Shown here: positions 5,259-18,296 of the stretch, one piece after another | Numbering within the stretch: the first letter of the stretch is position 1 | Layout of the letters: every line of letters starts with the position of its first letter | From: Nitrosomonas sp. | GTDB taxonomy: Bacteria > Pseudomonadota > Gammaproteobacteria > Burkholderiales > Nitrosomonadaceae | Direction: 5' to 3' | DNA: 58,335 nucleotides | NCBI GenBank assembly: GCA_017879645.1 | Contig: JAAEXZ010000007.1 | Span: 1-58,335, forward strand | Made by a program: the position numbers and the translations under genes | Notes under the pieces: model-generated | What the model was told of the DNA's origin: nothing | Seen by the model: the letters and a program-made list of their open reading frames with translations, nothing else | Databases searched by the model: none

Positions 5259-6176
5259 ATGGATCGTATTGAAAATATGAATGCGTTTGTGCGTGTTGTG
5301 GAAGCCGGCAGCATCAGTGCCGCAGCCGATCGCATGGACTTGGCCAAATCGGTAGTCAGTCGACGGCTCAAGGAACTGGAGCAGCACCTGGGCGCAGAAT
5401 TGTTTCATCGCACCACACGTCAAATGAATCTGACCGATACCGGACGCACCTTCTATCATCAGTCGGTGCGCATTCTCGAAGATATTCTGGAAGCCGAGCG
5501 CGCAGCTTCACAAGACCACTGCGCCCTGAAAGGCAGCCTGAAAGTCGCCATACCCCACAGCTTCGGCCTGATGCATCTGGGCCCTGCCATCACAGAATTT
5601 CTGCAAATCCATCCCGATATGGAATTCGATCTGGATTTCAATGACCGGCAAATCGATCTACTGGCGGAAGGCTTTGACCTTGCCATTCGCATCGCCAATC
5701 TGCCGGATTCCAGTCTGATAGCGCGCAGACTTGCCCCCGTTCGCGCTATCTTATGCGCCAGCCCGGCCTATCTTGAGCGTTGTGGCAGTCCACAGACCCC
5801 TGCCGAACTGGCTCAACATCGTTGTCTGGTCTACAATCTGATCAATAACCATGAAACCTGGGATTTTCATGATCCGCAAGATCAACTGACACGCGTGAAG
5901 ATCGTGCCATATCTAAAAGCCAGCAATGGAGAATATCTTCGCGATGCCGCCGTGGATGGACTGGGCATTATCCTGACACCCACTTTTATCGTCTACCAGG
6001 AAATACTGTCGGGAAACCTGGTACCGCTATTGCCTCAATATCGCTTGTGGGAACTCGCCGCCTATGCCATTTACCCGCAAACCCGCTACCTCTCTCAGCG
6101 CGTCAGGGCATTTGTAGATTTTCTCGTTCACCGATTCAGTGGATCGCCATACTGGGACACGCTTCACAAATCATGA
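5259..6176 (+). CDS. LysR-family transcriptional regulator
   Basis: The 305-residue protein has a winged helix-turn-helix at residues 1-60 (NAFVRVVEAGSISAAADR, then SVVSRRLKELEQHLGAELF). A substrate-binding-like effector domain occupies about 90-295 (GSLKVAIPHSFG onward). It resembles the subgroup that controls adjacent pirin or quinone-detoxification genes. It is transcribed away from the pirin-DoxX operon, the usual arrangement of a LysR regulator and its target, with a perfect dyad at 5222-5244. The inducer is unknown. Confidence 0.93.
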   Translation: MDRIENMNAFVRVVEAGSISAAADRMDLAKSVVSRRLKELEQHLGAELFHRTTRQMNLTDTGRTFYHQSVRILEDILEAERAASQDHCALKGSLKVAIPHSFGLMHLGPAITEFLQIHPDMEFDLDFNDRQIDLLAEGFDLAIRIANLPDSSLIARRLAPVRAILCASPAYLERCGSPQTPAELAQHRCLVYNLINNHETWDFHDPQDQLTRVKIVPYLKASNGEYLRDAAVDGLGIILTPTFIVYQEILSGNLVPLLPQYRLWELAAYAIYPQTRYLSQRVRAFVDFLVHRFSGSPYWDTLHKS

Positions 6177-6336
6177 TCGATTGGTAAAAACGGGTATCGC
6201 AAGGCTTTAGGTCGCTCCAGTTTTCCATCAAGTACAAATTTTTCATGATATCAATCACCCGCATGATAAAATTTGCCCCTTTCTAGACCGTCTACTTTTC
6301 TTACCTGATTGTTCCAAGTGAACATTCAACGAAACC

Positions 6337-6540
6337 ATGATACAGCTCACCATAAATGGACAACCGCAACAATTTGAATCCCCCATCAACTTGACCCAGC
6401 TGGTAGAACACCTTGCGCTGCAAGGCAAACGCATTGCGATCGAGCGCAATGGCGAAATCATTGCACGTAGTCAGTTTGCCGCTCAAATGCTGGAACATGG
6501 CGATCAACTTGAAATTGTGGTTGCTGTGGGTGGAGGGTAA
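6337..6540 (+). CDS. thiS: Sulfur carrier protein ThiS
   Basis: A 67-residue ubiquitin-like protein beginning MIQLTINGQ and ending in the diagnostic Gly-Gly tail (VAVGGG). ThiF adenylates the C-terminal glycine, which then carries sulfur as a thiocarboxylate to ThiG for the thiazole moiety of thiamine. It lies 40 bp before thiG, the normal order. No thiamine riboswitch was recognised in the 160 bp upstream. Confidence 0.96.
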
Positions 6541-6580
6541 AACCGTGCCGACAACCAATCGATCTCATTTACAGGAAAGC

Positions 6581-7396
6581 ATGGATAATTTAGTTATTGC
6601 GGGTAAAGCCTATACTTCGCGCTTGCTGGTGGGTACTGGCAAATACAAGGATTTCAACGAAACGCGTATGGCCATCGAAGCCAGTGGCGCTGAAATCATT
6701 ACGGTGGCGATACGGCGCACCAATATTGGGCAAAATGCCAACGAACCCAATTTACTCGATGTTTTGCCCCCCTCGCACTATACGCTGCTGCCGAATACGG
6801 CGGGATGTTATACCGTCGACGATGCGGTGCGCACCTTGCGACTAGCACGTGAATTACTGGACGGACACAGCCTGGTCAAACTGGAGGTACTGGGAGACCC
6901 CAAAACGCTGTACCCCAATATGGTAGAAACGCTGAAAGCAGCTGAAATCCTGATCAAGGAAGATTTTCAGGTGATGGTCTACACCTCTGACGACCCGATC
7001 ATCGCCAAGCAACTGGAGGAAATGGGATGCGTAGCAGTCATGCCTCTGGCATCACTGATCGGTTCGGGTATGGGTATCCTGAATCCCTGGAACTTACAGA
7101 TCATCATTGATAATGCCAGGATTCCGGTACTGGTCGACGCTGGGGTCGGTACGGCATCCGATGCCACAATTGCAATGGAGCTGGGTTGTGACGGCGTATT
7201 GATGAATACCGCCATTGCAGCGGCGACCCATCCTGTACTCATGGCATCGGCGATGAAAAAAGCCGTTGAATCCGGGCGTGAGGCTTATCAGGCCGGGCGC
7301 ATGCCCAAAAAATTGTATAGCGCCAGTCCCAGTTCACCCGTTGACGGTGTGATCGCCCCTGCCGACAGCACTGTCACACGCAAAACAGCGCAATAG
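6581..7396 (+). CDS. thiG: Thiazole synthase ThiG
   Basis: ThiG condenses 1-deoxy-xylulose-5-phosphate, dehydroglycine and ThiS thiocarboxylate into the thiazole phosphate of thiamine. The protein is a TIM barrel with the conserved VGTGKY start, TVAIRR, the Schiff-base lysine K100 in [15 protein letters not shown], and [15 protein letters not shown] chose the ATG at 6581 (271 residues, [11 protein letters not shown]), which has an AGGA site 6 bp upstream. A GTG at 6545 would add 12 residues. Longer starts overlapping thiS are not plausible. Confidence 0.96.
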
Positions 7397-7438: not shown

Positions 7439-8107
7439 ATGCACCAGCACGGTATTCGCAGCTATGTGCTGCGCCAGGGACGGATATCCAATGCACAACG
7501 TCGCGCATGTGAACAGCTCATGCCGCGCTATGGCATCCCATTCAGCGAACACAGACTGGATCTGGAACAAATTTTCAATCGCCAGGCTCCCAAAATCCTG
7601 GAGATTGGTTTTGGCATGGGTGAAACCACGGCGACCATTGCCCGTTCCAATCCCGGCAGTGACTATCTTGGACTTGAAGTACATACACCGGGAGTTGGCA
7701 GTTTGCTCAATCAGATCGAGCAATTCGAACTAACCAATCTGCGCATCATTCAACACGATGCCGTTGCCGTGCTGCATCACATGATTCCAGCCCAATCTCT
7801 TGATGGCGTGCATATATTTTTCCCCGATCCCTGGCCCAAGGCACGGCATCACAAGCGCAGACTCATTCAAGCAGAACTGGTCGCAAGCCTGTGTGATCGA
7901 CTCGGAAATGGAGGCTATATCCACATCGCTACCGACTGGGAAGAATATGCGATACAGATCTTGCAGATACTTCAGCAAGAATCACAACTGCACAATACAG
8001 TGAATGACTTTGCACCCCGCCCATCTTATCGCCCGTTGACCAAGTTTGAACAACGTGGACTCAAACTTGGTCATGGCGTCTGGGATCTGATATTCACCAA
8101 AATCTAA
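7439..8107 (+). CDS. trmB: tRNA (guanine-N7-)-methyltransferase
   Basis: TrmB makes m7G at position 46 of tRNA using S-adenosylmethionine. The 222-residue protein has the SAM-binding motif [10 protein letters not shown] (53-62), the family signature [16 protein letters not shown] (127-142) and the ATDWEEYA region near the C-terminus. It follows thiG by 42 bp in the thiSG-trmB order common in betaproteobacteria. No strong ribosome site is visible before the ATG. Confidence 0.96.
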
Positions 8108-8169
8108 ATTCAACAAAATTTATACCGTTGCATATATCCAAAATAATATATGTGTATTGCTTAATACTA

Positions 8170-8199
8170 TTTAAACAATTTTTGAAAAACGGTTATAGT
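8170..8199 (+). promoter_or_regulatory. Candidate sigma70 promoter of the TauE/SafE gene
   Basis: TTTAAA and TATAGT are separated by 18 bp in the AT-rich 135-bp gap before the transporter gene. The -10 matches consensus at most positions but the -35 is weak, so this is only a candidate. Confidence 0.35.
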
Positions 8200-8242
8200 G
8201 CGGCACGACCCAAGGTGCGCATCACTTAAATAAATTAAACTT

Positions 8243-9226
8243 ATGAAACTCCGCAATCTCGATCTCAGCAGTAACACCGTCAACGAAGAACATCAGCAAC
8301 TTGGCATCCCTCCCGTCGAAGATACTGTCTCTCATCTGGAAGCCCACCCCTTTCTGAAGGCAGCCGTCTGGTTTGCTGTCATCGTATTGATACTACTGAT
8401 TGTTTTTCTAGTTGGTCGTTTCTTCCTTGCGCAGGATTGGGGTGATAGCGTACAAATCATCAATGACACGATCGAGAGTAAAACTTTCTGGAGTGCAGTT
8501 GCAGTAGGCTTTCTGGCCCAGGTAGTCGATGGTGCACTCGGTATGGCTTATGGCGTAACCGCTACGACATTCCTGCTCATGTCCGGCGCAACCCCAGCAG
8601 CGGCCAGCGCCAGTGTGCACATAGCCGAGATTTTTACCACCGGGGTTTCGGGCATTGCTCATGCCAAATTCGGTAATGTTGATAAACAACTGTTCACCCG
8701 TTTGCTGGTGCCCGGAATGCTGGGCGGCATACTGGGAGCGGTGCTGGTCACACATATCGATAGCGCAATGTTTAAGCCTTTTATATCCGGCTATCTGATT
8801 CTGCTGGGCATTTACATTCTGAGCAAGGCATTCCGTCAGCTTCAGATTCGCCGTGATGCACCCAAACATGTTGGTAAACTGGCCTGTTTTGGCGGCTTCA
8901 TGGACGCAGCAGGCGGCGGTGGATGGGGACCAATCGTTACCACGACGCTTGTTGGCACAGGTAACGATCCTCGCACCACCATTGGTTCAGTCAATTTCGC
9001 AGAATTCTTTTTGACTTTGACCAGTGCAGCTGTTTTTGCATTGCTAATGGAGACCGATACCTGGCCACTGATCATCGGTCTGGTATTCGGAGGACTTTTC
9101 GCGGCTCCCTTCGCCGCCTATCTATGCAAAAAATTCCATGCACGCACCTTATTAATCCTGGTTGGTGTCTTGATCACTGGTATCAGCTGCTTTAATTTGT
9201 ACAAAGCACTCAGCCCATTTCTTTAA
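8243..9226 (+). CDS. TauE/SafE-type sulfite exporter family permease
   Basis: A 327-residue inner-membrane protein with about eight hydrophobic helices. The two-fold repeat of the TauE/SafE family is visible: VGFLAQVVDGALGMAYGVT in the first half and CFGGFMDAAGGGGWGPIVT in the second. Members export sulfite, sulfoacetate or other small organosulfur anions; the substrate here is unknown. The N-terminal 38 residues form a soluble extension. It stands alone, with non-coding DNA on both sides. Confidence 0.9.
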   Translation: MKLRNLDLSSNTVNEEHQQLGIPPVEDTVSHLEAHPFLKAAVWFAVIVLILLIVFLVGRFFLAQDWGDSVQIINDTIESKTFWSAVAVGFLAQVVDGALGMAYGVTATTFLLMSGATPAAASASVHIAEIFTTGVSGIAHAKFGNVDKQLFTRLLVPGMLGGILGAVLVTHIDSAMFKPFISGYLILLGIYILSKAFRQLQIRRDAPKHVGKLACFGGFMDAAGGGGWGPIVTTTLVGTGNDPRTTIGSVNFAEFFLTLTSAAVFALLMETDTWPLIIGLVFGGLFAAPFAAYLCKKFHARTLLILVGVLITGISCFNLYKALSPFL

Positions 9227-10381: not shown

Positions 10382-11533
10382 TTAAATATCTGCGGATGTC
10401 TTACGATAATCCTGGTTTCTCAGTTTGTCGGTCAGTCTATTCAAAGTATTTTTCATTGATCTTGCTATCGGTTTCTCGATAGCAACATGAATCAAGAATG
10501 ACAGCAGTATCATACCGATGATCAGGCTCCAGAATAAAATATATGGATTGATTCTGGTATATAAAGCGTTATAAATCATAAAACCAAGGCCCTGATGCAA
10601 TAGATACAGTGGATACGTTATGGCACCCAGCCATATCCAGTTTATTCGACTGATCACACCGGTTTGCCTGCATGCAATCAGGCCCATGATCACAAAAAAT
10701 GTACTGACAATGATAGCGATGACATAAGGACTCAGGTCATTCCGGATGCGAATCTCAAACTCATGCACATCGATTGTCGATTGATACAAAGCGCAACACC
10801 AGGCCAAAACGACTACCAAACAGCGAATCCAAGTCACCCCCTTGGACCACATGAAGAAAAATGCTGCGCCGGCTATGAAATTGGCGGAATAACCATCCAG
10901 AAGTACAATCTGAAAGCGCCAAACTGGATAAATAATTAATGTAATGGTAATCGCCAACCAGACCATGAATACCGTTTCGATTTGCTGGAACCTGCCCAAT
11001 AGCAGGACAATTGCCACCAAGGTATAGAACTTAAGCTCTGTAAACAGGGACCAATAAACGCTATCAATCGATTCCGTTCCTATAAAACCACTCAACATCG
11101 TCATATTGATAAGGTACTGACCGAAAGTTGCCGAGTATTCCGATGATCCCATTGTCAGAATGGCCACAAATGTAATGGTACAGCACGCCCAGAACGCAGG
11201 GTAAAGACGAGTCAGCCGGGATAGAACAAAATGCCTCAAGTCTTCGTTGGCGGCTGTCATCAGAATGACGAATCCACTGATCATGAAAAACAGATCGACG
11301 CCCAAATAACCGTATCTGAATAGGGAAGTTAGTAATGGATAAGGTGTGATGGTCTGGAAATTCACCGCGAAGCCATTCAGTGAATAATGATGAAAAACGA
11401 CTGACAATGCAGCGATAAATCTTAGCAAATCCAACTCGTTAACCCTGCTATGGCCGATACCACGCGCTATCACTTTAATCCACCCTGTCTGGTTTTGCGT
11501 TGATGCTGACCATGATGTTCCAGAATACAGCAT
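10382..11533 (-). CDS. Acyltransferase 3 family membrane protein
   Basis: The 383-residue integral membrane protein has about ten transmembrane helices. The acyltransferase-3 start is ELDLLRFIAALSVVFHHYS with the conserved histidine pair, followed by GYLGVDLFFMISGFVI and RLTRLYPAFW. The family moves acyl groups onto extracytoplasmic sugars such as O-antigen, exopolysaccharide or peptidoglycan. No glycan gene cluster is next to it, so the acceptor is unknown. The ATG at 11533 has a GAGG site upstream. The gene is isolated and convergent with the small exported gene. Confidence 0.88.
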   Translation of the reverse strand: MLYSGTSWSASTQNQTGWIKVIARGIGHSRVNELDLLRFIAALSVVFHHYSLNGFAVNFQTITPYPLLTSLFRYGYLGVDLFFMISGFVILMTAANEDLRHFVLSRLTRLYPAFWACCTITFVAILTMGSSEYSATFGQYLINMTMLSGFIGTESIDSVYWSLFTELKFYTLVAIVLLLGRFQQIETVFMVWLAITITLIIYPVWRFQIVLLDGYSANFIAGAAFFFMWSKGVTWIRCLVVVLAWCCALYQSTIDVHEFEIRIRNDLSPYVIAIIVSTFFVIMGLIACRQTGVISRINWIWLGAITYPLYLLHQGLGFMIYNALYTRINPYILFWSLIIGMILLSFLIHVAIEKPIARSMKNTLNRLTDKLRNQDYRKTSADI

Positions 11534-11584
11534 CGGTCAAATCCTCATAACCGGGAATTCTAAATTACTATTCATGATATAGCT

Positions 11585-11602
11585 CCTGTCCTTCAGGACA
11601 GG
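11585..11602. repeat. Short perfect hairpin, possible remnant of an IS200/IS605-type end
   Basis: CCTGTCC-TTCA-GGACAGG forms a perfect 7-bp stem with a 4-base loop in the gap between the divergent acyltransferase and DUF2726 genes. Its form resembles the subterminal hairpins of IS200/IS605 elements, but no transposase or TnpB gene is nearby. A plain regulatory hairpin is equally possible. Confidence 0.35.
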
Positions 11603-11723
11603 TTTGAAAGAAAAGAACTTCCTGGCTTTGTCCGCCCTTTGCGAAACTCCGGGTTAACAAAATTCAAAGTTCGATTCCAGGTGCCGATACCTACCTATAT
11701 TTTTACTCTGGAAGCAAGTCTTC

Positions 11724-12215
11724 ATGAAACTCAGTGGAATTTTTACCAAGACGATCACGTTGCTCAAATCGGACAAAAGAAACAAAAACTACCGCTATCA
11801 ATCCATGGAAGAGATGCTTTCCCATTCGGAACACAGTTTTCTCAGAATACTCAACGAATCACTTCCCCGAGGTTATGAGATTATTGCCAAAGTACGCATT
11901 ACCGATGTGCTCACACCCGGTGAAATCTTTGAGCTGCAAAACTGCAGTGCTGCGTTGCACAGACATTCGCCGAAGCATTTTGACTATATATTGTGTGAAA
12001 AACACTCACTTGCGATCGTTGCCGTAATCGAACTGGATGATCGCAATCATATTCAACGCGAAGCCCGCGCAAGGGACAAGTTTATTGAGAAGGCATGCAA
12101 AACGGCTGGATTCAAACTGCTCCGGTTTCCTTATCGATCCAGTTACCATGTGCACATCGTCAGAGAAATCATCACTCATTCGCTAAATTCTCCTAATCTG
12201 GCACAAAGTCTGTAA
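11724..12215 (+). CDS. DUF2726-domain protein
   Basis: The 163-residue cytoplasmic protein shows the DUF2726 pattern: LSHSEHSFLRILNESLP, IIAKVRITDVL, FDYILCEK, VAVIELDD, then a basic helix with ARDKFIEKACKTAGFKLLRFP. The acidic/basic layout resembles restriction-endonuclease-like folds, and DUF2726 domains occur with DNA-processing proteins, but activity cannot be shown here. The ATG at 11724 is preceded by GGAAG. No partner gene is adjacent. Confidence 0.75.
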   Translation: MKLSGIFTKTITLLKSDKRNKNYRYQSMEEMLSHSEHSFLRILNESLPRGYEIIAKVRITDVLTPGEIFELQNCSAALHRHSPKHFDYILCEKHSLAIVAVIELDDRNHIQREARARDKFIEKACKTAGFKLLRFPYRSSYHVHIVREIITHSLNSPNLAQSL

Positions 12216-12300
12216 CATACAGACAGCAGCATGGATCCCTCAATCAAAACAAACCGTGAGCATGCGCATTCGATCACTCGTTACCCAACAGGACATACAT

Positions 12301-12384
12301 ATGAACGATCTTTTCGACATCACCATTTATTCTGTCATTGCACTGATTTCCGGTTTCATCATCGCGCAGAAGTTCCGTAAATAA
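12301..12384 (+). CDS. Putative 27-residue single-helix membrane peptide
   Basis: The reading frame MNDLFDITIYSVIALISG... encodes 27 residues with one hydrophobic helix (about 7-22) and a basic end (QKFRK). An AGGA ribosome site sits 7 bp before the ATG. The layout of acidic N-terminus, one helix and positive C-terminal tail is that of many bacterial membrane microproteins. No homologue is recognised. It lies between the DUF2726 gene and the terminator of the oxidase operon. Translation is unproven. Confidence 0.45.
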   Translation: MNDLFDITIYSVIALISGFIIAQKFRK

Positions 12385-12535
12385 CAATCTTGTTTTCTCA
12401 GGTAGTGAAATGATTTGAGGTTTTTTCTCTCCGTCTCATTGGACAAGACAAACTATTCACTTAATTGAAAATATTTTACTGAACCACCACAAGCAGTACA
12501 ATCGGTGTTCAATAAGTGGCTACCACAAAAAAAAA

Positions 12536-12560
12536 CGGCTACCAGTAAAACTGGTAGCCG
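12536..12560 (-). terminator. Intrinsic terminator of the multicopper oxidase operon
   Basis: A perfect 11-bp stem (CGGCTACCAGT / ACTGGTAGCCG) with a 3-base loop lies 42 bp beyond the large-subunit stop codon. On the minus strand it is followed by a run of about nine T residues, a strong Rho-independent terminator. Confidence 0.9.
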
Positions 12561-12602
12561 AACACCTCGGAACTACACTTCCGTTACTTAAAAATCAATT
12601 GA

Positions 12603-15365
12603 CTACTGTATTGGGCTTCTTTGTTTATCGGTAAGCGCCCAGGTTGCAGGAACATTCTGTACCCAGCCGTTATACACGTTAGGAACAGCCAGAACACCCT
12701 GACCACCGAATCCAGGCAAACCGCTAACGGTATCATCCTTGGCCGTATTGATATCATCGACCAGAGAGATATAACCTGCAATTTCTGCATCATTAATTTT
12801 GCCATTACCATCTGGATCGACATCAACCACAGTCAATCTGTTACCAAATTTCGTCGTGACATAGGCGTAATACCCGCCACCAGCTTTTGCACCCCAGTTG
12901 GCACCATGACAGCCTGGGTCGCAAGGCAGCATCTTGACGATTTCATCTGTTTCAGTATCAATAATGACAATCTGACCACCCATCGCGGCAATGACGACTG
13001 CCTTACCATCCGGTGAAACCGGTGACTGAATCGGCAGCACCCCTATAGCTTTTTCTCCATTACCATCATTGTCTTTTACTTCACCCGTGATCGGATTGTA
13101 ATCGGCAATCAGATTAATGGTTTTCAATAGTGCACCATTATTTCCATTCAGAACGGTCATGGAATGATGCAACAGATTCGCCGCATAAATTTTGCTGGAA
13201 TCCGGCATCATACCAATTGCAATCGGATGCGCACCCGGAACATCGTTTCCGGTCGGCGTGCGTGCCTGGATACCGCCGTTGGCGCCATAGATACCGACAT
13301 CATTGGTATTGATGTTTGGTGTCACAATTTTCGAACCATCGGCACTGATCCAGTGACCATGCGGATTGGCCGAAATATGGCCTTGTGCCTGGGTTGGCAT
13401 CATCTTGGTGACATTGGTCGTTCCTGCCGGAATGACCATGACACCATTCTCACCATTGACAGCGATGGTAATGTCATCATTGGTTGGCAATGTCACCACA
13501 TGCGAAGGCGAATAACCCACGGTAATATTCTTGATCAGCGCGCCCGTTTCACGGTCGATCATCGAGAATTTGTTATCAAACCACTGGGTCTGGTAAATCA
13601 CCGACTGGTCGCGGCTTGACCACATATTGTGCGGGTTATTGTTGTTGATTTGCGGCAACGCAACCTTGCGTTTGACTTTCCATGTGGCAGTATCCACAAC
13701 AGTCGAAGTTCCGGGCTTGTATTTATGGGCGGTTTTTTCAAACTGGGTATTGACCCATACTTCACCTACACCCGGTTTTGCTGGCACATTTCCAACCGCC
13801 AAAGCTTCATTGTTAACATTCAGAATAGACAGTTGTAATGGATATCCGCCATCTTGAACATTTCCGAATGGTGCACCGGAAATCCTTACCGGCAGGGTCG
13901 GGAATCTGACATTCCATAATCCCGAAGAATAATCCTTCCAGTTATCTGGCGCTGTGGCAATAAAGAATGTTTTCAGCAAAGTCACTGCCAAGTCACTGCT
14001 GGTTGGCAAATCTTTTAGTCCAGTAACCAGATCGATGGTGAAGTTCTTGGCTGGATTGCCCAGATCAAGACCTTCCGTATTAGGATCGTCCACAATCACA
14101 GCACCAAACATGAACGGATGAACCTTGCAGGTAAAGACATACAGACCGGGTGTATGCAATGTGACAAAACCACCACCACGATAAGCACTGCTTTGATTAT
14201 AAGGCATATGCTCGGCTCCGCTCGGCCATAATAGTGAACTGATGGTATGCACCGCATTGGTATCCGACATGATGAAATTCACGCTGCTGCCGGGAACAAT
14301 CACTTCCAGAGACTTGGTCTTGATGTCTGCACCTTGGAGCGGTGAACCGCTAGCGCTGGGCTTGCTCAGCTCCACGATGGCATCGCCGCGTGCGCTTCTG
14401 AACCAGCTTGCAGGTTCGTCACTGACTTCAAAGGTTACCACACCTGGTTCATCTTTCGGACCCAGTAAAATCCTGCCGTAAGGCGATGCACCCACGACAC
14501 TGGTTCCATCTCCGCTTCCAACGGCATCCACTTTGAAGTTACCATGCATGCCGGCTTCCATGTGCGCAATCAAATGACAATGATACTGCCACGCACCTGC
14601 ACCGACACCCGTTCCAGCTTTGATTGTAAAGGAATGGGTATCCGTGCCTTCAGCCAGCAACTTGGTATCGATCGCTTCCTGCGTATCTTTTTTCAACCAA
14701 CGATGAGCGTGCAAGTGGAAGGTATGTCCGGGACCGATCGACAGAATATGGAAACGCACGATGTCGTTTTCGACAGCACCGGGATGAGGATTGGCCCACA
14801 GCGGCTTTTGCGAACCGTCTGCAGCGATTTCCGTACCCCAGAAAGTCGATCCGACCATGAACAGGACAAACTGTTTATCGATAGCATTTCTGTGCACCGG
14901 AACGATATTGCCATTGGCTTCCATATAGCGATCCACGGGACCCGTAGCTTTGTCCACCACCAGCGCACCAAACAGTCCCAGCAATTCCTTGCCATTCATA
15001 TCGCCGTGGTAAACATAGGTTCCAGCCTTCTTGGCCTGCACCGTATAATTTTTGGTTTGACCTGGTTTTACCCTAGCAGAATTCGGTGCCGATAGACCCG
15101 GTACCTTGAAACTAACCACGGAGCTGGTATCGTTCTTCAGCGATACTTTGAGCGTGTCCCCTTCCTTCACAAACAGCGCCGGTCCTGGAATAACGGCCTC
15201 ATTCGCTCCCAACGCATAAGCCAGTTGACCATTCGGCAGAATCTTGGCCGTCAGATTAAAACTATGAACCGCAGCAAAAGCCATTGCCGAGGTCAAAAAT
15301 GCAGCAACAAAAAACAGGATCATCAGCGCCTGTTTTCTGATACCCGATGAATTCTTGTTGTTCAT
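12603..15365 (-). CDS. Multicopper oxidase large subunit: cupredoxin domains plus beta-propeller
   Basis: A 920-residue exported protein. I chose the ATG at 15365, which has AAGGA 8 bp upstream; an upstream ATG would add 16 residues. Signal peptide 1-31. Cupredoxin domain 1 (about 32-140) lacks the usual HxH motifs: SFKVPG stands where HVHG is expected, and YHGD where YHDH is expected. Domain 2 (about 160-280) has intact ligands: HTFHLHAHRW (H214, H217, H219) and YHCHLIAHMEAGM (H262, C263, H264, H268, M273). A third cupredoxin (about 350-427) has H373 and CKVHPFM (C413, H416, M419), the spacing of amicyanin. Residues about 530-900 form a YVTN-type beta-propeller with repeated His at blade starts (H579, H622, H669, H713, H820) and a perfect EF-hand loop (D850-E861). 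It follows the small subunit by 37 bp. The substrate is unknown. Confidence 0.88.
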   Translation of the reverse strand: MNNKNSSGIRKQALMILFFVAAFLTSAMAFAAVHSFNLTAKILPNGQLAYALGANEAVIPGPALFVKEGDTLKVSLKNDTSSVVSFKVPGLSAPNSARVKPGQTKNYTVQAKKAGTYVYHGDMNGKELLGLFGALVVDKATGPVDRYMEANGNIVPVHRNAIDKQFVLFMVGSTFWGTEIAADGSQKPLWANPHPGAVENDIVRFHILSIGPGHTFHLHAHRWLKKDTQEAIDTKLLAEGTDTHSFTIKAGTGVGAGAWQYHCHLIAHMEAGMHGNFKVDAVGSGDGTSVVGASPYGRILLGPKDEPGVVTFEVSDEPASWFRSARGDAIVELSKPSASGSPLQGADIKTKSLEVIVPGSSVNFIMSDTNAVHTISSLLWPSGAEHMPYNQSSAYRGGGFVTLHTPGLYVFTCKVHPFMFGAVIVDDPNTEGLDLGNPAKNFTIDLVTGLKDLPTSSDLAVTLLKTFFIATAPDNWKDYSSGLWNVRFPTLPVRISGAPFGNVQDGGYPLQLSILNVNNEALAVGNVPAKPGVGEVWVNTQFEKTAHKYKPGTSTVVDTATWKVKRKVALPQINNNNPHNMWSSRDQSVIYQTQWFDNKFSMIDRETGALIKNITVGYSPSHVVTLPTNDDITIAVNGENGVMVIPAGTTNVTKMMPTQAQGHISANPHGHWISADGSKIVTPNINTNDVGIYGANGGIQARTPTGNDVPGAHPIAIGMMPDSSKIYAANLLHHSMTVLNGNNGALLKTINLIADYNPITGEVKDNDGNGEKAIGVLPIQSPVSPDGKAVVIAAMGGQIVIIDTETDEIVKMLPCDPGCHGANWGAKAGGGYYAYVTTKFGNRLTVVDVDPDGNGKINDAEIAGYISLVDDINTAKDDTVSGLPGFGGQGVLAVPNVYNGWVQNVPATWALTDKQRSPIQ

Positions 15366-15402
15366 TGCACTATCCTTATCATTTAGGTGCTTGTTCTCTA
15401 TT

Positions 15403-16404
15403 TTATTGAACATCGAATTTACCCCTCATGCCCAGCAGCCTGTTTGTCAGGTTTGTGTCCACATACTGCGCATCTTGCTGTGCCTTCACGCTAAATACAT
15501 GCTTCTCGATCGGACCAATCGCAACCTGACTGATAAGATTGTTTGTACCTGGATCAAACCATTGATAGCCATTCAGTTTGAATGTGTGAATGTCGGTACC
15601 CAAGGCAATCAGATGAAAACGAACCCGGGTTCCCGCTTTGGCAGACAAGGTAGGATTAGGCCCATGTTTGGATTGTTTCTTGGTATGACCAACGATTTCC
15701 ATTCCCCAGAATGCATCGTCACCCAGATACAGTACATACTCCCTGGCAAAAGTAGGACCACCAACGGGGTTGACAATAATGGCACCAAACAGACCCTTGT
15801 GTTCCGAACCATTATGAGTTTCGAAATTGTGATCATGATAGGCCCATGTACCAGCCGTTCCGTGTGCCACATCCCATTCATATTCATATATGGAATAGGT
15901 TTGCACCAGACCGGCCCCCGCACCTTCGTCATCGACTTGGTTGATCACTTTCAGCGTACCATCACTCAAAATATTGTAGTGAACACCATGCACGTGAATA
16001 CTCACCTGTTTGCTGATACCGGCTACCGCAACATTATTATTCGGTATCGCGTTCATAATGGATATTTTGACTTTGTCGCCTTCAGTCAGCTCGATCGTCG
16101 GACCCGGAATCGTTGCGTCTGGGCTATAACGATCGGTTACATCCTGACCATTGATTGTATGGCTCAACATTTTGTAAGCCAATAATTTGTTACCAAAACC
16201 ATCATCACGCGTCTCTTCCGCAGTCAGTGAAATGACGTGTTGAGCGGCGAAACAGTTTTGAATCAACAGGAAAGACACCATCGCTCCCATTCCCAACTTC
16301 AGCAGCTTTTGCTTCAGCGAAGGCTGTTGCGGTACAGTTCGCACAGTGCTAGAACTTTCTTCGTGTTCTAGTTCACCAGGCAACTGGTTTGATTGAAACA
16401 GCAT
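15403..16404 (-). CDS. Multicopper oxidase small subunit with only domain-1 copper motifs
   Basis: A 333-residue protein; the ATG at 16404 follows a strong GGAGGGG site at 16413-16419. A 30-residue polar leader precedes the hydrophobic signal segment (about 38-54, ending CFAA), so the signal is unusually far in. Domain 1 has both type 2/3 copper motifs of two-domain oxidases: SIHVHGVHY (H137, H139) and WAYHDHNFETH (H190, H192). Domain 2 has lost its ligands: HTFKLNGYQW keeps H273 but has K276 and N278 in place of His. The HCHxxxH motif is replaced by V315-D316-T317 with N321, although the axial-type M326 remains. Alone it could not bind a complete trinuclear site. It is the partner of the large subunit encoded next. 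Confidence 0.88.
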   Translation of the reverse strand: MLFQSNQLPGELEHEESSSTVRTVPQQPSLKQKLLKLGMGAMVSFLLIQNCFAAQHVISLTAEETRDDGFGNKLLAYKMLSHTINGQDVTDRYSPDATIPGPTIELTEGDKVKISIMNAIPNNNVAVAGISKQVSIHVHGVHYNILSDGTLKVINQVDDEGAGAGLVQTYSIYEYEWDVAHGTAGTWAYHDHNFETHNGSEHKGLFGAIIVNPVGGPTFAREYVLYLGDDAFWGMEIVGHTKKQSKHGPNPTLSAKAGTRVRFHLIALGTDIHTFKLNGYQWFDPGTNNLISQVAIGPIEKHVFSVKAQQDAQYVDTNLTNRLLGMRGKFDVQ

Positions 16405-16633: not shown

Positions 16634-17365
16634 CTATTTTTCAGGATCTTCCGGGTTAAACATCCCGGTATTGTAGGAATCCCTGAAGTAGTTATAGAGC
16701 GGCGCTTTCAAACACAATTCAATCTGCTTCTTTACACCAATTTTTTTATAAATTACAGACAACTGATTTCTGACCGTCTTTTCCGTTACAAATAATTGGG
16801 TACTGATTTGCTTGGCGGAAAGCCCTCTGCAGGCCAAAAAAGCGATATGGCGTTCACTATCACTTAATTTGGGTTGCGGTATGGTTTGCGCGTTAGGTGA
16901 CGCTTCAACCTGGGGGGGGGAGTGATGATCAAATTGGGCTTGCCACAACAGCTTGGTGATATGCCGGTCATACCATACTTGACCGGCATGAATGGCATAG
17001 ATGGCTTTCAACAACAATTCGGAAGAATGATGCTTGCTGATGATGCCTACTGCACCGGCACGAAAAGTTTGCAGATAAATAGTTTCATTATTCTGGTGTG
17101 AAAAAGCCAGAACTTTACTTTGCGGGCAAGCATTCAGCAATTTGGAGATATGGTCAATACAATTGCCATTGTTCAATAGCAGATCGACCAGAATCACATC
17201 CGGTTTGTGTTGCAGTGTCAGATTGATCAGCTCATCAATACAACTGGTATCGGCAACAAGCCGGATCGAGGCATGGTTTTCAAACAAGGAACGTAGTCCG
17301 ATACGAACCAGTTCGAAGCTTTCTGCAACCAAAATACGAATTTTGTTTTGAGATCGTTCAACCAT
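16634..17365 (-). CDS. NarL/LuxR-type response regulator with atypical receiver
   Basis: The 243-residue protein has a receiver-like domain (about 9-125) and a LuxR helix-turn-helix (about 168-228, LSAKQISTQLFVTEKTVRNQLSVIYKK as the core). The phosphoacceptor D61 is in place (VILVDLL) and the lysine of GIISK is kept. The usual acidic pair is VAESF, with one acid replaced by serine, so normal Mg-dependent phosphorylation is doubtful. A tract of nine G/C pairs at 16912-16920 falls in the interdomain linker. It is a close paralogue of the next gene upstream (17619-18296). It lies directly before the oxidase genes on the same strand and is the natural candidate regulator of them. Confidence 0.9.
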   Translation of the reverse strand: MVERSQNKIRILVAESFELVRIGLRSLFENHASIRLVADTSCIDELINLTLQHKPDVILVDLLLNNGNCIDHISKLLNACPQSKVLAFSHQNNETIYLQTFRAGAVGIISKHHSSELLLKAIYAIHAGQVWYDRHITKLLWQAQFDHHSPPQVEASPNAQTIPQPKLSDSERHIAFLACRGLSAKQISTQLFVTEKTVRNQLSVIYKKIGVKKQIELCLKAPLYNYFRDSYNTGMFNPEDPEK

Positions 17366-17618: not shown

Positions 17619-18296
17619 TCACTGAAAATATTTATATTCATGTGCTTTCAGGCATAGTTCAACTTGTTTTTTAACACCCATTTTTTTATATATAACAGAC
17701 AATTGGTTGCGCACCGTCTTTTCGGATATCAACAGTCTTGCGCCAATCTCCTTCGCCGATAGCCCCTGACTCGCCAAGCCAGCGACCCGACGTTCACAGT
17801 TACTCAATTTTGAAGAATCAATTAACACATCATTATTTTGTGTGCCAACCAATTTATTGTGGATGCCATTCGGTACTTTTGTCGATCGAACCGGACGATC
17901 AAACCAACCTTTATCCGATGCAATGGCATGAATCGCCTTGAGTATCATTTTGCAGGAATGACCTTTACTAATGATTCCAGCAGCCCCAGAATGCAATGCC
18001 TGCAAATAAGCACTTTCAGAATTATTCTGTGAGAAAGCAAGCACCCTGCTGTTGGGACTTGCATACATCAGCCGAGCAATTGATTCCGCAACATTGTTGT
18101 TTTCGCTCAACTGCAAATCCAAGATAACGACATCCGGTTTATGCAATTTGACCAACTCAAGTAACTCCTTCATATGAGTCGTTTCAGCAACTAAATGAAA
18201 CGATGCATGATCACTGAATAGCGACCGCAAACCGATACGAACCAACTCTATACTTTCAGCCACCAGAATATTTATTTTCGTATTGTTTGATTTCAT
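17619..18296 (-). CDS. NarL/LuxR-type response regulator with atypical receiver (paralogue)
   Basis: The 225-residue protein has a receiver-like domain (about 8-122) with D60 in VVILDLQ and a lysine in GIISKG. The acidic pocket is VAESI, the same one-acid variant as its neighbour at 16634-17365. A LuxR helix-turn-helix follows (about 162-220). The two proteins share long identical blocks, including ELVRIGLRSLF, EKTVRNQLSVIYKK and the KK(Q)xELCLKA end, so they arose by tandem duplication. A GGAGG site precedes the ATG. It may act with its paralogue, perhaps as a heterodimer; this is inference. Confidence 0.9.
   Translation of the reverse strand: MKSNNTKINILVAESIELVRIGLRSLFSDHASFHLVAETTHMKELLELVKLHKPDVVILDLQLSENNNVAESIARLMYASPNSRVLAFSQNNSESAYLQALHSGAAGIISKGHSCKMILKAIHAIASDKGWFDRPVRSTKVPNGIHNKLVGTQNNDVLIDSSKLSNCERRVAGLASQGLSAKEIGARLLISEKTVRNQLSVIYKKMGVKKQVELCLKAHEYKYFQ

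Follow-up and report, generated by a model that had tools for sequence, protein, structure and literature searches.

Two adjacent multicopper oxidase genes of ammonia-oxidising bacteria with complementary copper ligands and a probable shared active site

Can two copper oxidases, each lacking half of the ligands of its active site, make one working enzyme between them? The question is raised by two neighbouring genes, here called A and B, in a stretch of 58,335 nucleotides from a Nitrosomonas sp. (GenBank assembly GCA_017879645.1, contig JAAEXZ010000007.1, positions 1 to 58,335 of the forward strand), referred to below as the window. The window belongs to a genome of the genus Nitrosomonas (G000, 2.8 Mb in 186 contigs) and the closest named locus, from a Nitrosomonas metagenome-assembled genome (MAG), shows a 92% match to A. 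A preliminary description of the window had proposed that A and B encode proteins of 333 and 920 residues, and frames and starts for both were found. A lies in frame P0002 (16479-15403, minus strand, 358 amino acids, aa) with its start at M26 (base 16404), a position occupied by methionine in all 28 aligned rows that have a residue there. B lies in frame P0001 (15413-12603, minus strand, 936 aa) with its start at M17 (base 15365), seven bases 5' of which stands AAGGA. The two genes run head to tail on the minus strand with an intergenic gap of 37 bases. Residues are numbered here by frame; subtracting 25 (P0002) or 16 (P0001) gives the numbering from M26 or M17.

The copper-binding motifs named for both proteins in the preliminary description were correct, both those kept and those lost. 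In A the domain-1 pairs H162/H164 and H215/H217 are present and domain 2 reads HTFKLN and VDTNLTN. In B the domain-2 sets H230/H233/H235 and H278-C279-H280, H284, M289 are present and the domain-1 sites read SFKVPG and YHGD. Together A and B carry all eight histidines of a trinuclear copper site and each chain carries half. The type-1 copper set expected in domain 2 of a type B enzyme is found in B and not in A, and the family PF07732 is detected in both proteins and PF07731 in B only. Some trace of the type-1 site persists in domain 2 of A (15427-15588), where the type-1 histidine H298 occurs in 62/70 rows of the alignment described below and the distal methionine in 66/70; the cysteine position is aspartate in 60/70 rows and cysteine in none of the 70. 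D341 and M351 are invariant in a 24-row alignment. What is left there may still bind a metal as a non-blue site or may be no more than a structural vestige.

The pattern was followed in a scan of 84,980 species, each represented by one genome, which yielded 99 relatives of A, the best 80 of which gave 79 loci. Sixty-six of the 79 (L060-L125), from Nitrosomonas, Nitrosospira and related bacteria, are of the A-B kind. Row counts given here and in Table 1 include near-copies, second copies from one genome and the row of the window itself, and do not represent independent events. In every row of the A-B kind with the residues present, domain 1 of A is complete (69/69) and domain 2 of A is incomplete. 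The B rows that fail a domain-2 motif, five in number, come from frames that are broken by a frameshift, cut at a contig edge or truncated (two at L074, one each at L087, L088 and L108). In an alignment from genomes of the genus, H162, H164, H215 and H217 of A are invariant (31/31 rows), as are H230, H233, H235 and C279 of B (29/29) and M289 (28/28); H278, H280 and H284 are found in 28/29, the exception coming from the first fragment of a frame broken by a frameshift. The kept ligands are invariant or nearly so, whereas drift at the lost A motif has produced 28 different triplets in 69 rows, and for this reason the pattern cannot be put down to chance. The identity of the A protein of the window to other A proteins is 43-76% and the split is common to loci of Nitrosomonas, Nitrosospira and Nitrosovibrio. 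The complementary ligand split is a fixed trait of this family.

The preliminary description had left room for the lost ligands to be supplied from elsewhere in either chain. No sign of this was seen: apart from the type-1 histidine and the methionine of A, the lost positions are matched by no conserved histidine, cysteine or methionine. The other invariant or near-invariant histidines of A are H81, H167, H289 and H298, of which only H298 matches a ligand position; H289 is shared with B and with the complete oxidases.

Table 1. Coordinates in the window of genes A and B, their copper-binding motifs and additional domains, and flanking features
Feature	Positions	Strand	Remarks
Gene A, two-domain multicopper oxidase subunit with domain-1 trinuclear-site ligands only	15403..16404	minus	333 aa from M26
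A domain-1 motif H162-V-H164, kept	15988..15996	minus	HH in 69/70 rows; the other is a fragment without the region
A domain-1 motif H215-D-H217, kept	15829..15837	minus	HH in 69/70 rows; the other is a fragment without the region
A domain-2 motif HTFKLN, lost, type-1 first His kept	15571..15588	minus	full HHH in 0/69 rows
A domain-2 motif VDTNLTNRLLGM, lost, Cys to Asp, distal Met kept	15427..15462	minus	full HCHHM in 0/70 rows
Gene B, two-domain multicopper oxidase with domain-2 ligands only, plus third cupredoxin and beta-propeller	12603..15365	minus	920 aa from M17
B domain-1 motif SFKVPG, lost	15096..15113	minus	HH in 0/65 rows with residues there
B domain-1 motif YHGD, lost	15000..15011	minus	HH in 0/65 rows with residues there
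B domain-2 motif H230xxH233xH235 (type-1 and trinuclear His), kept	14703..14726	minus	HHH in 64/68 rows; 4 pieces or truncated frames
B domain-2 motif H278-C279-H280...H284...M289 (type-1 and trinuclear), kept	14547..14582	minus	HCHHM in 65/68 rows; 3 pieces
B third cupredoxin, blue-copper (type-1) set H389, C429, H432, M435	14079..14456	minus	bounds approximate
B beta-propeller, conserved His H595, H638, H685, H687, H836	12606..13916	minus	bounds approximate; regular strands in model
Terminator-like hairpin just 3' of B	12536..12560	minus	11-pair stem, then T tract; consensus match only
NarL-type response regulator gene upstream of A	16634..17365	minus	NarL model E 5.8e-25, below cut-off

Further evidence that the two genes belong together came from their co-occurrence in 37 genomes of the genus Nitrosomonas, that of the window included. 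Both genes are present in 27/37 (A with E <1e-69), adjacent or each at a contig edge, A without B in 0/37, and A is missing from 10/37 (Fisher's test 3e-9, or 8e-8 if genome G015 is scored as carrying B alone). G008, G011 and G017 have a B gene that is in pieces or of reduced length, and in G027 it is the A gene that is in pieces. The completeness of three genomes without A is 75% (G004), 89% (G009) and 87% (G015). In the last of these a 115-residue match at 64% to the C-terminal end of B stands at a contig start (G015:C170:5-349); this may be a stray copy, or a B gene for which the assembly lacks the neighbouring gene. A strong match to A was absent from 24 genomes of other genera of the order, where the best E was 2e-4. 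Within the 66 A-B loci, the cases of A without B are confined to contig ends (L079, L102) and to one MAG chromosome (L089/L118, CP091134.1). In that assembly gene A is in two pieces some 840 kb apart, the piece beside B adjoining a run of N, and the split is probably a misassembly. The preliminary description had also allowed that one gene might prove widespread without the other and with a full motif set; with 27 of the 37 genomes carrying both and none carrying A alone, and with full-set relatives that are single genes, the distribution speaks otherwise. Two A-B pairs lie in tandem at each of two Nitrosomonas loci (L100, L110) and the genomes G002 and G036 have two pairs each at separate places. 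In a Nitrosomonas communis MAG (L108, 7810-9876) B begins directly after A without domain 1 and the first domain-2 motif, and G011 is similar.

The full-set relatives are found at the remaining loci, L126-L138, where one two-domain oxidase gene carries the complete ligand set (13/13), as do control two-domain oxidases from the genus Nitrosomonas (6/6). Ten of these 13 loci come from records named for methanotroph taxa. The genomes of L131 and L133 carry the family of ammonia monooxygenase and particulate methane monooxygenase (AMO/pMMO), which was not found in the genome of L127 (Methyloversatilis). In 12/13 loci a separate gene for a cupredoxin-propeller protein, a homologue of the C-terminal part of B, comes after the oxidase gene; the copy at L130 is cut by a contig end. 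At L135 (Methylocystis silviterrae) no cupredoxin-propeller follows the oxidase and a 201-aa frame with only a similar N-terminal start is present (7851-8453); a frame similar to it occurs at L137 (3408-3977). One methanotroph family was surveyed in 151 genomes, taken from a larger group, and these contained the oxidase in 11 cases and the cupredoxin-propeller in 12, with 11 pairs adjacent and the twelfth propeller at a contig start. These systems contain the nearest relatives of both halves of the A-B pair and of the fused part of B, although unlike A and B they have a single full-ligand oxidase gene that is not fused to the propeller. To our knowledge the combination of this oxidase with a cupredoxin-propeller protein has no name. 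In a tree of 72 rows, built with the ligand columns left out, there is one clade of A rows (support 100/99), one of B rows (98/95) and one of L126-L138 rows (85/99), and the A and B subtrees show much of the same branching order.

The partition is also seen outside the ligands. For the 56 loci with both genes complete, the identity of each domain to the enzymes of L126-L138, again with ligand columns left out, came to 0.50 for domain 1 and 0.37 for domain 2 of A and to 0.37 for domain 1 and 0.46 for domain 2 of B. Domain 1 of A exceeded its domain 2 in 56/56 loci and domain 2 of B exceeded its domain 1 in 56/56, or in 55/56 when 4 or 8 neighbouring columns were masked too. In the second shell of the site D173 is retained in 69/69 and Y168 in 68/69 A rows, residues that we take to correspond to Asp113 and Tyr108 of small laccase; in B the counterpart of D173 is deleted and that of Y168 is never tyrosine. 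When pairwise identities were correlated, ligand columns included, the highest value was obtained between domain 1 of A and domain 2 of B (0.77) and the lowest between domain 2 of A and domain 1 of B (0.59).

The fold of the two proteins gives these observations a structural setting. AlphaFold2 models of the single chains had a predicted local distance difference test score (pLDDT) of 82.3 for A and 90.4 for B (predicted template modelling score, pTM, 0.88 for B). The 50 solved structures listed by Foldseek for each protein were all two-domain laccases of the small-laccase kind, with best E values of 1.3e-19 for A and 2.2e-20 for B. The nearest solved folds for both are those of the type B two-domain oxidases (SLAC, Ssl1 and CjMCO), which share with A and B the two-cupredoxin fold and the motif positions and, with B only, the type-1 set in domain 2. 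The known type B enzymes are homotrimers with all ligands in each chain, whereas A and B have half per chain and B has a cupredoxin-propeller extension. The trinuclear site of two-domain laccases is described as lying where domain 1 of a monomer meets domain 2 of its neighbour (PMC13151041).

With a probability that we put at roughly 0.85, A and B form an obligate hetero-oligomer with a trinuclear copper site between domain 1 of A and domain 2 of B. As each holds the matching half of an active site, the two very probably must join to give a working oxidase; judged by its ligands neither protein could make a trinuclear site alone and a homomer of either could not form it. A and B would then be paralogues that serve as subunits of a single copper oxidase, probably an exported one, assembled in the manner of the known two-domain oxidases with domain 1 of A facing domain 2 of B. 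The trinuclear site at the interface would consist of H162, H164, H215 and H217 of A and H233, H235, H278 and H280 of B, and the type-1 copper of B (H230, C279, H284, M289) would adjoin it. Electrons from a reductant, perhaps after passing through the extra cupredoxin of B (H389, C429, H432, M435), would enter at this type-1 copper, and oxygen would be reduced at the shared trinuclear site. The preliminary description had suggested modelling 1:1 and 3:3 assemblies. A 1:1 alternation of A and B cannot hold in a ring of three two-domain subunits since, as a matter of geometry and not of result, three interfaces do not allow two subunits to alternate; the candidates are A2B, AB2 or another ring size. 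A three-subunit ring of either composition would have one working site. A precedent for such a ring is ceruloplasmin which, like hephaestin, is a six-domain pseudo-threefold ring with a trinuclear site at only one of its three interfaces, although each of these is one fused chain as opposed to the two genes here and the likeness was compared at the level of the cupredoxin fold only.

Several points weigh against this reading or soften the evidence for it. Structure prediction covered single chains, so that the contact between A and B is inferred, and the template modelling scores of the Foldseek matches listed were moderate (0.66-0.75 relative to the target, with a root-mean-square deviation of 3.8-6.8 Å). 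The identity of the complete enzymes among themselves is 0.81 for domain 2 against 0.75 for domain 1, and since their domain 2 is the more conserved, some of the bias of B would be expected in any case; the bias of A towards domain 1 runs opposite to this trend. The counterpart of Y168 is phenylalanine in 5/13 complete enzymes, which makes the retention of this residue weak evidence. Correlated distances need not mean contact because A and B share the history of their genomes, and common ancestry accounts for much of any correlation of this sort. Per-column entropy separates the two domains in B (p 0.0012) and not in A (p 0.44). Finally, the tree carries a long-branch warning from the tool that built it and has no secure root, and on that account the order of evolutionary events is only inferred.

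Other accounts of the two genes can be set against the same data. A and B may associate without a full trinuclear site, A being a structural or regulatory pseudo-subunit and B an electron carrier acting through two type-1 coppers. B does keep two complete type-1 sets, and paralogues that have lost their ligands often turn into scaffolds, but it is precisely the four domain-1 histidines of A and the four trinuclear histidines of B that are kept in all complete rows, and with an identity of 43-76% between the A of the window and other A proteins it is hard to see why a scaffold would retain them; we regard this account as unlikely. Less probable again is that a third oxidase supplies the missing halves, with A and B each pairing with another complete two-domain oxidase. 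Such oxidases do occur in the genus, one of them, cut by a contig end, in the genome of the window itself (L056), yet they are very distant, separated from A and B by a branch of 4.29 to either side of the root of the tree, and A and B are adjacent, A was not found without B in the genomes of the genus and their trees share much of their branching order. That the genes are decaying copies and the ligand losses a sign of pseudogenisation, as the frameshifted, split or truncated B frames at L074, L087, L088, L108 and L123 might suggest, is ruled out by the ligands kept in every complete row and by frames that are mostly open, in a split shared by three genera.

As to the origin of A and B, a history in which the oxidase gene was duplicated, one copy was fused to the propeller gene and opposite halves were lost from the two copies fits the data and is the simplest. 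An ancestral homomer would be expected to resemble the single-gene, full-set oxidases at L126-L138.

The fused part of B deserves separate mention. Each of the four type-1 residues of its third cupredoxin is present in 62/62 fused rows, in 11/11 rows of the L126-L138 type and in 3/3 rows of stand-alone proteins. The five propeller histidines listed in Table 1 are kept to a similar degree, H595 in 61/62 and the other four in 62/62 fused rows, and all five in 11/11 rows of the L126-L138 type and 3/3 stand-alone rows. A further histidine, H729, is found in 60/62 fused and 3/3 stand-alone rows and in 0/11 rows of the L126-L138 type. The conserved histidines, which span 12906-13631 of the window, possibly form a further metal site. 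A CxxxCH motif (C831, C835, H836) is present in nearly all of the propeller proteins. In the genome of the window a stand-alone cupredoxin-propeller paralogue, 52% identical, was also found (L058, 2616-4481, minus strand; G000:C26:52621-54294), and a stand-alone relative occurs in many genomes of the genus, including some without the A-B pair. Nitrous-oxide reductase (NosZ), the propeller of which carries a seven-histidine CuZ site, is likewise built from a beta-propeller and a cupredoxin, and the profile of its clade III form (L-NosZ, NF052460) shows weak similarity to B; unlike that of NosZ, the cupredoxin of B has a type-1 set. Assignment of the C-terminal part of B to L-NosZ was rejected, the match being 25.4 bits (56.8 bits for the L126 protein) against a cut-off of 700 bits. 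No chain named nitrous-oxide reductase was present among 36 solved-structure matches at E up to 1.

What might such an enzyme oxidise? The hosts are ammonia oxidisers, methanotrophs and a few MAGs whose kind is uncertain. The AMO/pMMO family (PF02461) was detected in 15/23 genomes tested, several drafts being without it, Nitrosospira and Nitrosomonas drafts among them, and the hydroxylamine oxidoreductase (HAO) family in 17/23, one of these weakly. In MAGs assigned to Chromatiales (L101), Pseudomonadales (L119) and Nitrospirae (L102) AMO was found in 0/3, and HAO was absent from two and weak in the genome of L102.

It can be proposed, tentatively, that the composite enzyme uses oxygen to make nitrite from nitric oxide (NO), or from a related compound formed when hydroxylamine is oxidised, either for detoxification or as a step in nitrification. 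NO oxidation is a known activity of ceruloplasmin, and the distribution of the present enzymes, in ammonia oxidisers and as the single-gene type in some methanotrophs, would agree with such a role. Full-strength HAO matches occur in 9/11 oxidase-bearing as against 29/151 methanotroph-family genomes (Fisher's test 5e-6, or 3e-5 with six weak matches added); counted by lineage in our own grouping the figure is 5/7 (p 0.004). At L126 a regulator of the Rrf2 family (6166-6615) that is nearest to NsrR lies divergent to the oxidase gene, and a close relative is present at L127 (6088-6591); the match to NsrR is however 142.8 bits, below the cut-off of 182 and near the 138.9 bits of RirA. In Methylocystis L137 the neighbours include NnrS (E 2e-102) and a COX1-family gene, although the frame of the latter follows an in-frame stop and has no NCBIfam match at 1e-5. 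The arrangement there (11180-15016, with L138 alike) is an oxidase-propeller pair before the COX1-family gene, which resembles a quinol NO reductase and has its first part separated off by the in-frame stop, and NnrS. Regulators similar to SufR, below cut-off, are found near the oxidase at L129 and L130. Each of these neighbour links is drawn from few loci, L126 and L127 being close kin as are L137 and L138, and A is absent from 10/37 genomes of the genus, so that the A-B oxidase is not essential for nitrification. Taken together the co-occurrence with HAO and the few neighbours hint at nitric oxide.

A second possibility, also doubtful and ranking close behind, is a metal oxidase acting on Cu(I), Fe(II) or Mn(II), or a copper-handling enzyme in support of a copper monooxygenase. 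Many multicopper oxidases are metal oxidases, and the hosts are copper-dependent, as the PF02461 counts given above illustrate. Homologues of PmoD of one class are described as often encoded near multicopper oxidase genes (PMC6189053). On the other side, no copper or iron transport genes were noticed among the recurrent neighbours, most of which were not scanned for families, and the oxidase is present in only 11 of the 151 methanotroph-family genomes.

As to the surroundings of the pair, signal-like hydrophobic N-terminal stretches can be made out by eye in both A and B, and both proteins are for this reason probably exported. The terminator-like hairpin behind B comes from a scan that returned fewer hairpins than did its shuffles. 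Upstream of A two similar response regulator genes stand in tandem (16634-17365 and 17619-18296). A cluster of response-regulator-like genes lies upstream in 35/79 loci and in 0 of L126-L138, the label having been judged from one example.

No description of a heteromeric two-domain oxidase pair was recognised in the open-licence literature among the matches listed, mostly at the level of title and abstract. In passages of its main text, a proteomic study of three ammonia oxidisers makes no mention of a multicopper or copper oxidase (PMC5960693). During phage infection of Nitrosomonas europaea two multicopper oxidase genes, which are not identified in the text, are reported to rise together (log2 6.16 and 6.14; PMC13356812).

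Taken singly, A or B would be annotated as an ordinary or a degenerate multicopper oxidase. As a pair they would be a copper enzyme, undescribed within the open-licence literature matches listed, carried by 27 of the 37 genomes examined from an important genus of nitrifiers. The enzyme by which nitrifiers convert nitric oxide to nitrite is still debated. A full account, in which duplication and mirror-image decay gave rise to a hetero-oligomer, fused to a cupredoxin-propeller as its electron input, that serves many ammonia oxidisers as their NO oxidase, with a homomeric forerunner in hydroxylamine-oxidising methanotrophs, is more speculative than the assignment of a substrate taken by itself. 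How a homomer turns into an obligate heteromer is a classic question, and active sites between identical subunits are common in enzymes. The A-B pair would be a clear case of a self-assembling enzyme that has become an obligate two-protein one, in which the single-gene type, the two decayed copies and the fusion can all be read from living genomes and the same partition is seen at the ligands and across whole domains.

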